NCBI RefSeq assembly: GCF_024362365.1
Contig: NZ_CP101464.1
Location: forward strand, 2,418,001 to 2,482,000
Origin: Janibacter sp. CX7
GTDB lineage: Bacteria > Actinomycetota > Actinomycetes > Actinomycetales > Dermatophilaceae
Reading direction: 5' to 3'
Length of the DNA: 64,000 nucleotides
Positions 7,669 to 55,116 of this stretch are shown in pieces; within the stretch, counting starts at the first letter, position 1, and every line of letters begins with the position of its first letter. The notes under the pieces were generated by a model. That model made no database searches. It was not told the origin of the DNA and was given only the letters and a program-made list of their open reading frames with translations. Position numbers and translations under genes: made by a program.

Positions 7669-7742
7669 AACCCTGCAAAACCCTAGGGTCCTGCAGGGTT
7701 AGCCGGGCCCAACTCTGCAAAACCCTAGGGTTTTGCAGAGTT
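7669..7742. repeat. Two tandem 32-bp palindromes
   Basis: The unit 7711-7742 is a perfect palindrome: AACTCTGCAAAACCCT followed at once by its complement. The unit 7669-7700 is the same apart from one arm change and two mismatches in the second half (AGGGTCCTGCAGGGTT). A 10-base spacer separates them. They lie between the ends of the convergent M23 and pcrA genes. They could act as terminators, but perfect palindromes with no loop and no T tract are unusual for that. Confidence 0.9.
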
Positions 7743-13431: not shown

Positions 13432-13472
13432 GGTCCCTTCGAGACGGTCGCTGCGCGACCTCCTCAGGGACC
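13432..13472. repeat. REP-I palindromic repeat, copy 1
   Basis: GGTCCCTTCGAGACGGTCGC continues to a matching AGGGACC end. The outer ends GGTCCCT/AGGGACC and the inner GGTCGC/GCGACC are both inverted, giving a two-stem element. It starts four bases after the acetyltransferase stop codon and ends 20 bases before the next gene. Copies 2-4 are at 16245, 32529 and 43533. Confidence 0.85.
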
Positions 13473-13492
13473 GTCGTGAGTACTGTCGGGGC

Positions 13493-32115: not shown

Positions 32116-32227
32116 TACCCCACGGTAACCGGGGGCCCCCCGACCCGCCAGAGGTGGCCCGTGGGCGAGACGCACGCCACCCCGGTCCCCGAGACGGAGG
32201 CCGCCCGGGCCGACGCCACGCCACGAC

Positions 32228-32473
32228 GCCGTTGCTCCGTACGACGAACCGCATCTCCCCCGCCAGCGCCCTCGGTCGGCGCCGCGCCCTACGCCGTTGC
32301 TCCGTACAACGGTCCGCAGCTCACCCCACCCAGCACACCCGGCCGGCCGGCCAGCGCTTCGCCGTTGCTCCGTGCTCTGAGCCGCCGCTCACCGTACGGA
32401 GCAACGGCGTACGCAGTCATCGCGCCCGACGTTCCGCCCATCGCCGGCATGCGGCTCAGAGTACGGAGCAACG
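32228..32473. repeat. Palindromic repeat array A (three forward, two inverted copies)
   Basis: Core GCCGTTGCTCCGTAC occurs forward at 32228, 32293 and (variant ending GTGCTCTGAGCC) 32361, then inverted at 32394-32408 and 32461-32473. Forward copies 1 and 2 are followed by GACGAACC and AACGGTCC. Copy 3 and the last inverted copy with its GGCTCAGA lead can pair over 21 bp with one mismatch. Spacers are 40-60 bases and unrelated. The same core and order recur at 53624-53866. Confidence 0.9.
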
Positions 32474-32528
32474 TCAGGGTCTCGAAGGCCGCACGACCTT
32501 AAGGAAATGCGAAACCGGTCCGCACGCG

Positions 32529-32566
32529 CCCTTCGAGACGCTTGCTGCGCAAGCTCCTCAGGGATC
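32529..32566. repeat. REP-I palindromic repeat, copy 3
   Basis: CCCTTCGAGACGCTTGCTGC is followed by GCAAGCTCCTCAGGGATC; the inner CTTGC/GCAAG pair is inverted. It lies 16 bases past the guaB3 stop codon. Confidence 0.85.
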
Positions 32567-32581
32567 GTCAGACCACCCCGG

Positions 32582-52275: not shown

Positions 52276-53562
52276 ATGCCGACCCGAGCCAGTCACCTGA
52301 CCCGCGCCGCTGCAGGCCTCGCCGTCCTCGCCCTCGCAGGGTGCGGCGCCGACTCCGGGGAGGGCAGCTCGACCTCCTCCTCGTCGACCTCGGGTGCGAA
52401 GACGTCGAGCTCGACGACCTCGACGTCGGCGACGTCCTCCCCTTCGTCCTCGTCGAAGACGTCGTCCGCGAGCTCCTCCTCGCGCACGACTTCCGCCACC
52501 GCCTCCGGCCCGGACGCGGGCGCCTGCGTCGAGCAGGTGCGCGAGGCGATGACGCCGACCCAGCAGGCCGGGCAGCTGCTCATGGCGGCGATGCAGCCGG
52601 GACCCGCGACCGGTCTCGACGGGCCGATCGGGGCCCAGGGTCTGGGCTCGATGCTCTACCTCGGCGGCTGGAAGGACAGCGGGACCGTCGCGGCCGCGAG
52701 CCAGCACCTGCAGGACGTCTCCCCGACCGTCGACGGCACGAAGGTCGGCATGCTCGTCGCCGCCGACCAGGAGGGTGGCGAGGTGCAGCAGCTCACCGGT
52801 TCCGGCTTCACGTCCATGCCCTCGGGCCTCGAGCAGGCCCAGCTGCCCGACCTGCGCTCCTCTGCCAAGGGGTGGGGCGCCGAGCTCAAGCAGGCCGGCG
52901 TCAACGTCAACCTCGCCCCGACCGCGGACACCGTGCCCGCCGAGATCGGCCGGGCCAACGAGCCCATCGGCAAGTGGGGGCGCCAGTACGGCTCGACCCC
53001 GCAGGCCGCGAGCAAGGGCGCGCTCGCCTTCGCCCAGGGGATGCAGGACGCGGGCGTCGAGCCGACGGTCAAGCACTTCCCCGGTCTGGGGCGGATCACG
53101 GGCAACACCGACCTGCGCGACACCGGCATCACCGACTCGGTGATGACCCGGGACGACTCGCACCTCACGCCCTTCGCCGATGCCATCGACGGCGGCACCC
53201 AGATCGTCATGGTCGGCTCCGCGCACTACTCGCAGATCGACGGCGAGACCCCGGCCCTGTTTTCCTCGAAGATCGTCGACGGCATGCTCCGCGACGACCT
53301 GGGCTTCGACGGGGTCGTCATCACCGACGACGTGGGCGCGGCCAAGGCTGTCTCCGCCACCCCCGTCGGCGAGCGGGCCACGAAGTTCATCGCCGCCGGC
53401 GGCGACATCGTCCTCACCGCCGACCCGAGCCAGGTCTCGACGATGGTCTCCGCCATCGAGGCCAAGGCGAAGGGGGACCCGGCCTTCGCGAAGCAGGTCA
53501 CCGCGTCGGTCACCCGGGTGCTCACGCTCAAGGAGGACATGGGTCTGCTGCGCTGCGGCTGA
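52276..53562 (+). CDS. GH3-family lipoprotein, NagZ-like beta-N-acetylhexosaminidase
   Basis: The 428-residue lipoprotein has a signal peptide and lipobox LALAGCG near residue 23, then a Ser/Thr-rich linker to residue 77. The GH3 N-terminal barrel carries AADQEGGEVQQL, VKHFPGLGRITGN with the catalytic His, and the nucleophile in FDGVVITDDVGA. These enzymes remove N-acetylglucosamine from cell-wall fragments. TAGCCT at 52263-52268 is seven bases before the ATG (leaderless). The enzyme acts outside the membrane, unlike E. coli NagZ. Confidence 0.92.
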   Translation: MPTRASHLTRAAAGLAVLALAGCGADSGEGSSTSSSSTSGAKTSSSTTSTSATSSPSSSSKTSSASSSSRTTSATASGPDAGACVEQVREAMTPTQQAGQLLMAAMQPGPATGLDGPIGAQGLGSMLYLGGWKDSGTVAAASQHLQDVSPTVDGTKVGMLVAADQEGGEVQQLTGSGFTSMPSGLEQAQLPDLRSSAKGWGAELKQAGVNVNLAPTADTVPAEIGRANEPIGKWGRQYGSTPQAASKGALAFAQGMQDAGVEPTVKHFPGLGRITGNTDLRDTGITDSVMTRDDSHLTPFADAIDGGTQIVMVGSAHYSQIDGETPALFSSKIVDGMLRDDLGFDGVVITDDVGAAKAVSATPVGERATKFIAAGGDIVLTADPSQVSTMVSAIEAKAKGDPAFAKQVTASVTRVLTLKEDMGLLRCG

Positions 53563-53623
53563 GCCGAGTGGCCGTGGCGCCGGGTCAGCGGCCGAGTGGC
53601 CGGGGCCAGGTGGATGGGCCCCC

Positions 53624-53866
53624 GCCGTCGCTCCGTACGACGAGCCACGCTCCCGCACGGCCCCGTGCCGCGCGACGCCCTACGCCGTTGCTCCGTACGA
53701 CGAGCCAGTTCCTTCGCCCACTGCCCGGGCCCACCTCGCCCCATACGCCGTTGCTCCGTACGACGAGCCGCGGTTCAGAGCACGGAGCAACGGCGTAGGC
53801 AGTCATCCGCACCCCCGTCGCCCCACCGATCCACCCCGCGTCCGGCTCAAAGTACGGAGCAACGGC
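53624..53866. repeat. Palindromic repeat array B (three forward, two inverted copies)
   Basis: The core GCCGTTGCTCCGTAC with tail GACGAGCC is forward at 53624 (one mismatch), 53684 and 53747. Inverted copies follow: 53772-53794 (lead GGTTCAGAG) and 53844-53866 (lead GGCTCAAAG). Flanks CCCTACGCC or CCATACGCC are also shared between forward copies, and GTAGGCAGTCATC follows an inverted copy, close to array A's GTACGCAGTCATC. Spacers of 37-50 bases differ. Order and polarity equal those of array A. Confidence 0.92.
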
Positions 53867-53905
53867 ATAGGCAGCGATCCGGGCCTCGACCGTGGGCTCC
53901 GGCTG

Positions 53906-53977
53906 CACCTGTGTCACCAGGGTGACGCCTGTGTGACCGCATGGAGTGACACGGGCGGGCGGATCGTCACACAGGTG
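53906..53977. repeat. Second palindrome set: CCTGTGTNAC forward and inverted
   Basis: Forward CACCTGTGTCACC (53906) and GCCTGTGTGACC (53927) are followed by inverted AGTGACACGGG (53945) and GTCACACAGGTG (53966-53977). The layout, forward copies then inverted copies, mirrors array B with another core. It may serve as a terminator for the convergent genes. Confidence 0.75.
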
Positions 53978-54036
53978 CCGCGCCACCCGCGGCCGGCGCG
54001 GCTCACGGCACTCGGTCGCGCCCTCGCCGCCCGCCC

Positions 54037-55116
54037 TCAGTGCGCGTGGTCGTGGTCGACGTGCACCGGCAGGCCGGTGCGCACGTCGGTCACCGGCAGC
54101 GAGCTGTCGGCGGGGAGCGAGAGGTCGCTCGCCGGCCGCCCCTTGAGCATCATCTGGGCCCCGAGGCTGGCGACCATCGCGCCGTTGTCGGTGCACAGCC
54201 CCGGCCGCGGGACGCGCAGCTGGATGCCGGCGTCATCGCACCGTTGCTGGGCCATCGCCCGCAGGCGCGAGTTGGCCGCGACCCCACCACCGACCTGCAG
54301 CGCGGCGACATCGTGCTCGGTGCAGGCGAGCACCGCCTTGCGCGTGAGGATGTCGACGACGGCCTCCTGGAAGGACGCGGCCACGTCGGCCACCGGCACG
54401 TCGCGCCCGGCGGCCTGCTCGGCCTGGACCCAGCGGGTCACGGCTGTCTTGAGCCCCGAGAAGGAGAAGTCGAAGCGGTGCCGCTCCATGTCCTTGCGGC
54501 TGGAGAGCCCCCGCGGGAAGTCGATGGTGATCTGCCCGTCGCTCGCCGCCCGGTCGATGTGCGGCCCACCGGGGAAGGGCAGCCCGAGCACCCGCGCCAC
54601 CTTGTCGAAGGCTTCCCCCGCGGCGTCGTCGATCGTCGACCCGAGGCTGCGGATGTCGTGCGTGACATCGGGGACGAGCAGCAGCGAGGAGTGGCCGCCG
54701 CTCACGAGCATCGCCATCGTCGGCTCCGGCAGCGGCCCGTGCTCGACGATGTCGACGGCGACGTGGCTGGCGAGGTGGTTGACGCCGTAGATCGGCAGCC
54801 CGAGGGCGACGGCCAGCGCCTTGGCCGAGGCGACGCCGACCATGAGCGGGCCGGCGAGGCCCGGGCCGGAGGTCACGGCGATGCCGTCGAGGTCGGTCAG
54901 CGCGACGCCGGCGTCACGGCAGGCCCGCTCGATCGTCGGCACCATCGCCTCGAGGTGGGCACGGGAGGCGACCTCGGGCACCACCCCGCCAAATCGGGCG
55001 TGCTCGTCGACGCTCGAGGCGATGGCATCGACCAGCAGCTCGGTGCCGTGGACGATGCCGACACCGGTCTCGTCGCACGAGGTCTCGATGCCAAGAACGA
55101 GGGGTGCATCCGTCAT
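54037..55116 (-). CDS. tsaD: tRNA N6-adenosine threonylcarbamoyltransferase
   Basis: The 359-residue enzyme moves the threonylcarbamoyl group to A37 of ANN-decoding tRNAs with TsaB and TsaE. It has [14 protein letters not shown] at the start, the metal site histidines in SRAHLEAM and [17 protein letters not shown], and the C-terminal GVAANSRLR with CTDNGAM. The tail ends with a His-rich HVDHDHAH. It is the last gene of the alr-tsaE-tsaB-rimI-tsaD operon and overlaps rimI by 4 bases. Confidence 0.96.

Follow-up and report, generated by a model that had tools for sequence, protein, structure and literature searches.

Array B between a GH3-like gene and tsaD

The window, which is the whole stretch of 64,000 nucleotides that was analyzed (C1:2418001-2482000), belongs to the 3.23 Mb, one-contig genome of Janibacter sp. 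CX7. Between two genes reading towards each other, presumably a GH3-like gene and tsaD as recognized from the sequence and the original prediction rather than by a family search, it contains five copies of one 27-base unit at 53620-53870, three forward and then two inverted (array B; Table 1). Forward cores had been predicted at 53624, 53684, and 53747, and the three forward and two inverted copies were confirmed in these places; the inverted coordinates 53772-53794 and 53844-53866 were also right and included the 3' tail beyond the cores 53780-53794 and 53852-53866. The proposed core with a short tail was real, whereas the conserved unit was longer and spanned 27 bases (core positions -4 to +22) compared to the 15-base core. 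Nine of the first ten matches listed for the GH3-like gene come from Janibacter, with J. indicus scoring best at 86%. A separate inverted repeat, CACCTGTGTCACC...GTCACACAGGTG, lies at 53908-53987 between array B and tsaD.

Table 1. Positions in the window of the array B units, the genes on either side, and the sister array A.
Feature	Position	Strand	Details
Left flanking gene, GH3-like	52276..53562	+	Reads towards array B
Unit 1, forward	53620..53646	+	Core 53624-53638 = GCCGTCGCTCCGTAC, one mismatch to consensus; CGCTCC for TGCTCC
Unit 2, forward	53680..53706	+	Core 53684-53698
Unit 3, forward	53743..53769	+	Core 53747-53761; left arm of central hairpin pair
Unit 4, inverted	53772..53798	-	Core 53780-53794, one mismatch; right arm of central pair
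Unit 5, inverted	53844..53870	-	Core 53852-53866
Right flanking gene, tsaD	54037..55116	-	Reads towards array B
Sister array A, FFFRR as array B	32224..32479		Cores 32228, 32293, 32361 forward; 32394, 32461 inverted

That array B was neither a CRISPR, a plain tandem array, nor a single hairpin was borne out, and a CRISPR was rejected on the inverted copies, the spacers duplicated within several arrays, and the 13 loci. The original prediction also matched it to no named class, and a scan of the window and the array B region with Rfam gave no match above the gathering score at array B, only a sub-threshold microRNA match; elsewhere in the window an FMN riboswitch was identified at 2050-2179 on the minus strand (95 bits). 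A phage or plasmid origin was rejected, with no match of the 301-base array B region in phages or plasmids and no viral contig carrying either of two exact patterns. The exact-tail pattern had no match in a wider genome-contig collection that may omit this genome and its near relatives, making this a weak result.

The genome-wide family and the architecture of its arrays

In the 64,000-nt window, the core search with up to three mismatches gave 11 matches compared to 3.3 expected, with one of 100 shuffles as high, which taken alone was weak evidence for core enrichment. The repeat was settled as real by the whole-genome counts, in which CCGTTGCTCCGT occurred exactly 34 times compared to zero for the reversed pattern, and GCCGYTGCTCCGTAC at no more than one mismatch occurred 47 times compared to two for the reversed control, all 47 lying within 13 clusters. 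These 13 arrays contain 52 units (24 forward and 28 inverted) that, when stacked, defined the sharply bounded 27-base unit cTACGCCGTTGCTCCGTACgacGaGCC, which begins four bases ahead of the core, ends eight bases past it, and has an information content below 0.4 bits outside. Within it, TGCTCC was intact in 50 of the 52 units, unit 1 of array B being one of the two exceptions. Array A, flanked by genes for an aldehyde dehydrogenase and an IMPDH-family protein, both on the minus strand, has the same order as array B. The count of 13 arrays is a lower bound, given that two looser forward units, GCCGTTGCTCCAGAG, were identified next to another palindrome at a fourteenth locus (L326, near 1290 kb). 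Among relatives outside the array-bearing genomes no core excess was detected, with mostly zero to one matches compared to control counts of zero to four.

Other dispersed elements were observed in these genomes. The element CCCTGAGGAG...GCGCAGC...GTCTCGAAGGG has two copies in the window (13435-13473 and 32531-32573), the second just past array A, and a copy at locus L045 matched places in at least 14 of 16 Janibacter genomes. A second palindrome family differs in its letters by genome: CAAAACCCTAGGGTTTTG in the window (7676-7693 and 7718-7735), CATTTCCCTAGGGAAAT at 152 places in G004, GCATTGCCCTACGGCAATGC in G006, GCATTGCCCTATGGCAATGC in G010, and a CACGACCTTAAGG-type in G012; the gap between tsaD and the GH3 gene contains it in G004, and G002 has a variant of it there. 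At L326, the looser units directly adjoin the CCCTAGGG palindrome family and follow a CGAAGGG...CCCTTCG hairpin, and the orthologous locus of G006 shows a comparable arrangement in the letters of that genome.

Array architecture was highly regular. All forward units preceded all inverted units in 12 of the 13 arrays, the exception (L061) having one extra inverted unit on the left; the joint probability of this order in the 12 arrays was 7e-7 under random orientations, a figure that includes one trivially compliant single-unit array and a pattern noticed before it was tested. Neighboring units of the same orientation were spaced 60-77 bases apart in 25 of 26 cases (the remaining distance was 27), the innermost forward-inverted step was 30-47 bases in 10 of 12, and the numbers of forward and inverted units were often unequal. 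Comparison of upstream spacers gave 10 of 1326 pairs above the shuffled maximum, nine of them within one array and eight of these from adjacent units, while the sole inter-array pair exceeded it barely (28 compared to 27). A further 101 downstream spacer pairs above the maximum were left uncounted as they mostly reflected the facing unit, the exception being the flank of arrays A, B, and L065. The within-array duplicates point to local duplication of a unit plus its spacer as the mode of growth. The spacers had originally been described as unrelated, which is not always the case, neighboring spacers being tandem duplicates in several sister arrays.

The sharp unit, the diverged spacers, and the regular pitch are also what would be seen if a nucleoid or gyrase-like DNA-binding protein used the arrays as platforms and set the roughly 67-base pitch and the converging polarity, and between neighbors with unrelated spacers the units were still 0.79 identical compared to 0.65 for the spacers (between-array spacer baseline 0.70), such that unit identity outlasts spacer identity. 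Against such a platform, units in fresh duplicates were hardly better kept than spacers (0.90 compared to 0.85), and the candidate pattern of cores much better preserved than spacers in such duplicates did not hold; the pitch of 60-77 bases is not helically locked; the ten other congeners matched by the hairpin model described below have one to five hairpin loci each; and the tail letters change, with both arms tending to change together, which a reader of the double-stranded tail would not require. A binding platform is considered quite unlikely.

Arrays A, B, and L065 have letters in common beyond the units of their central pairs, and the central pair and right flank of array B matched the L065 central pair (G000 near 893.6 kb) at 87% identity over 87 bp. 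This likeness beyond the units suggests that the central pair was copied from one site to another.

Hairpins of related genomes, their pairing, and their gene context

Most occurrences of the element in other Janibacter species are single forward-inverted pairs, each making a long hairpin. Of 186 genomes from the bacterial family, four contained the exact-pair pattern, and each of these is a Janibacter. The covariance model search proposed in the original prediction gave hairpin matches in 11 of the 16 Janibacter genomes (E 0.01 or better), of which six gave seed sequences and five (G002, G005, G007, G008, and G013) did not. With stricter filters (E 0.001), ten of 184 family genomes were matched, comprising eight Janibacter and two others. 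The outsider G116 carries CTCTGCGTTGCTCC...GGAGCAACGCAGAG, taken to be of the same type as the Janibacter hairpin, and the second outsider, G094, had a model match without TGCTCC; TGCTCC was invariant in the model seed and model matches therefore lean towards it. Besides the paired loci, G006 has further single units and G009 has two forward units followed by one inverted (FFR) at one locus.

Orthologous sites gave a view of how the element changes between species. The pheA gene was present in 15 genomes, with an array in CX7, a single core pair in G009, G010, and G015, a variant pair in G006 whose arms both differ in their inner letters from this core pair, and a perfect palindrome containing TGCTCC in G012 that was found by its locus and not by the covariance model. 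The G006 pair has its inverted arm first and hence the opposite polarity, although the forward-before-inverted order, which the original prediction expected to be kept, holds in the other aligned pairs of relatives. In the remaining nine genomes no such core was detected, the view covering about 400 bases in the three where the left gene was not found, and other inverted repeats were seen by eye in G011 and G014. Between G010 and G015, the pheA region was 91% identical and two stem pairs differed on both arms (TT/AA to GG/CC); G010 has two loci with identical 27-base arms while the tail at the G015 ortholog of the pheA site is different, a pattern that points to within-genome copying or conversion. 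At the site of array L067, a pair was identified in G008 and G015 and an FFR arrangement in G009, with one flank only as the G009 contig ends there.

At the tsaD site, the gene was found in 15 of 16 genomes and the adjoining GH3 gene was recovered in nine of those. The gap between them contains the array in CX7 and two decayed cores in G006, its nearest relative, beside an extra stretch of approximately 1 kb that is gene-like in look; in the other seven, the gaps were 9-114 bases without a core. This distribution indicates that array B is young in its own lineage, unless it was lost many times. Array B was also not the stand-alone structure of the tsaD site that it had appeared to be, as it belongs to a dispersed family and seven of nine genomes lack an array there.

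Tail-to-tail inverted 27-mers around a short middle resemble a classic MITE, with the unit as the terminal inverted repeat belonging to a DDE-type insertion sequence and nested insertions giving rise to the FF..RR arrays; the G006 ortholog of one CX7 array, with the inner pair only, would fit this as well. Yet no full-length element with such ends occurred among the own-genome matches, where no core matches bracketed a transposase-sized stretch (the transposase search covered Y1_Tnp). In addition, unequal numbers of forward and inverted units are common, growth occurred by tandem duplication of unit plus spacer, and no target-site duplication was found, an empty tsaD site with a target duplication being unreadable because the flanks of the relatives are short and divergent. 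A MITE is considered very improbable.

Pairing of the arms was evaluated in 17 aligned hairpins with 27 pairs, from which one loose pair (L067) was left out, to which one from L062 was added, and where any pair whose gap exceeded 37 bases was omitted. Standard pairs made up 87.9% of cells compared to 28-48% when the arms were slid, and two-sided changes occurred in 39 cells compared to a shuffled mean of 20.5, with none of 500 shuffles as high, in rows that include within-genome copies and cells that are not independent. The numbers of pairs (11) and of pair types (27) with two-sided change were reached by 98 and 150 of the 500 shuffles, respectively, such that two of five covariation measures did not exceed them. 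Ten stem pairs were invariant, among them the six of TGCTCC, while the arm tails varied in letters with both arms tending to change together; perfect arms run to about 16-30 bases. The two-sided changes support pairing of the arms and selection for it without proving selection, as related rows inflate the other covariation measures and two measures lie within the shuffles, and repair templated by the opposite arm could also yield them.

The alternative pairings that had been proposed for an array B transcript were supported by prediction. RNA folds of array B were stronger than those of shuffles (z -5.8 on the plus strand and -3.9 on the minus strand), and in the minimum-energy folds unit 5 was predicted to pair with unit 2 on the plus strand, enclosing the central hairpin, and with unit 3 on the minus strand, each structure representing less than 1% of its ensemble. 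Folded singly, five units gave -1.4 to -8.7 kcal/mol compared to shuffled means of -2.7 to -5.9, three being better than the shuffles by 1.4 to 2.8 and two worse. Among 141 hairpins with arms of at least 14 bases in four 400-kb samples, partly picked to include known loci, eight hold TGCTCC and all of these are this repeat family or the G012 hairpin.

The 13 arrays are in eight convergent, one divergent, and four same-direction or unclear contexts, based on orientations from a simple GC3 gene caller, supplemented by Pfam for some of the flanks and by the reading of ORF lists. The convergent share is a mild excess over the background of 32-34% (P 0.03-0.04), and it includes L071 although the gene on its left stops some 760 bases short of it. 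Six of the seven convergent arrays measured (L071 excluded) have at least one stop codon no more than about 60 bases away, and transcripts may well therefore carry the hairpins. The array between divergent genes is upstream of a gene read by eye as a sigma-factor gene.

This placement, the strong predicted folds on both strands of array B, and the two-sided changes in the stem would be consistent with the arrays acting as bidirectional 3'-end structures of convergent genes (terminators or RNA-stabilizing hairpins) that are kept for their function, with repeats adding strength; each transcript would first encounter the sense-oriented units and afterwards fold with the inverted ones. The arrays could plausibly act at transcript ends, but as an account of the arrays this 3'-end reading is unlikely. 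No intrinsic-terminator site (a hairpin then a T run) was found in 53400-54200, the one array B interval searched. The usual Janibacter terminators are perhaps other hairpins with CGAAGG or CCTTCG in or beside the arm, which made up 43 of the 141 strong hairpins in the 400-kb samples (L240-L319) and one of which precedes the unit at the fourteenth locus. Furthermore, a terminator needs no common 27-base sequence at 13 loci, one array is upstream of the putative sigma-factor gene between divergent genes, and seven of nine genomes manage without an array at tsaD.

Relation to known repeat classes and a model of array growth

REP-type repeats are usually explained by RAYT transposases. The RAYT-type Y1_Tnp domain (PF01797) was not found in the CX7 genome (0/1) or in the 16 Janibacter genomes (0/16), some assemblies of which are incomplete (lowest 79%), while the control search was positive in five of 14 named genomes; a RAYT-driven REP was accordingly rejected. 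In a limited literature search, no paper was found naming such a repeat family in Janibacter or its bacterial family.

REPINs are described as REP doublets that form hairpins (Bertels and Rainey, 2011; PMC3116915). The Janibacter repeat is similar to that account in being a short extragenic repeat dispersed in one genome, with hairpin-forming inverted pairs and sometimes clusters of tandem copies that include flanking sequence. It differs in that no RAYT gene was found in any of the 16 Janibacter genomes searched, in having tens of units compared to hundreds in the example given there, in a unit without a consistent palindrome of its own, and in arrays built as FFF..RR blocks. As with the BIMEs and RAYT-associated REPs described by Nunvar (2010; PMC2817692), there are several regularly spaced repeats and repeated modules, and segments between repeats without mutual homology. 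BIMEs alternate in orientation whereas the Janibacter arrays switch once, in mid-array, and no RAYT was found with the Janibacter repeat, in contrast to the REPs of that report. At 52 units, the copy number is low by the measure of the same report (usually >100 per genome) and within range by that of the GTAG/CGTC-tagged palindromic repeats, many families of which have 20-100 units or fewer (PMC3733652).

The tagged repeats offer further parallels as presented in PMC3733652, the main text of which contains neither "actinobact" nor "Streptomyces". The inverted units of CX7 often end in GTAG, the tagged repeats favor unidirectional and convergent intergenes, and the CGTC repeats also have no dedicated transposase. 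In contrast, the GTAG end is not kept in the congeners (AGAG, GAAG, and others), and the perfect arms of about 16-30 bases exceed the stems of 5-13 in that report. The repeat is described as working like the REPIN/BIME class with an unusual array layout and, based on the comparison, would not be filed as a member because no RAYT was found (16/16) and the orientation does not alternate.

The dispersal pattern, unit, polarity, pitch, duplicated modules, and pairing with two-sided changes were observed, and array B probably belongs, in expanded form, to a Janibacter family of hairpin repeats that is REPIN/BIME-like but RAYT-less and in which a pair dispersed and was then locally duplicated. Its basic element would be one forward-inverted pair of the 27-base unit, tail to tail, able to fold into a long hairpin either as RNA or as single-stranded DNA. 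This pair would have been copied to new intergenic sites in its own lineage and would have grown outwards on each side by tandem duplication of the unit plus about 40 bases of neighboring DNA, giving the FFF..RR blocks; old spacers would then have diverged while the units stayed recognizable. Such a non-coding hairpin repeat would spread or be homogenized within the genome, with mobility or conversion as the putative cause of dispersal, and near the 3' ends of convergent genes, where it is often situated, its folded transcript may block 3'-to-5' decay or read-through. Speaking against the hairpin-family reading are the absence of Y1_Tnp matches in 16 genomes, the absence of CX7 core matches bracketing a transposase-sized stretch, the lack of a readable empty tsaD site with a target duplication, units hardly better kept than spacers in fresh duplicates, the two pairing measures within the shuffles, the opposite polarity at pheA in G006, and the mild convergent excess. 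The original interpretation was therefore partly supported: a REP family copy, or an order and polarity not kept in relatives, had been named as speaking against it, and the array is REP-like, is not conserved at tsaD, and has a counterpart of opposite polarity at pheA in G006.

Most likely, an unrecognized enzyme or host repair spread and homogenized the hairpin pair, and local duplication produced the arrays. A more specific and rather doubtful proposal is a hairpin with a nearly fixed mid-stem TGCTCC and species-specific other stem letters that is read and copied by an unrecognized non-RAYT factor in Janibacter and neighboring genera, driving concerted within-genome change and outward array growth at a roughly constant 67-base step; if true, this factor would be a new kind of repeat-propagating system. 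A REP-like family in a genus where no Y1_Tnp was found makes the RAYT explanation testable, the alternatives being another enzyme or host repair alone, and the single pairs and large arrays among close relatives are a natural series for array growth.
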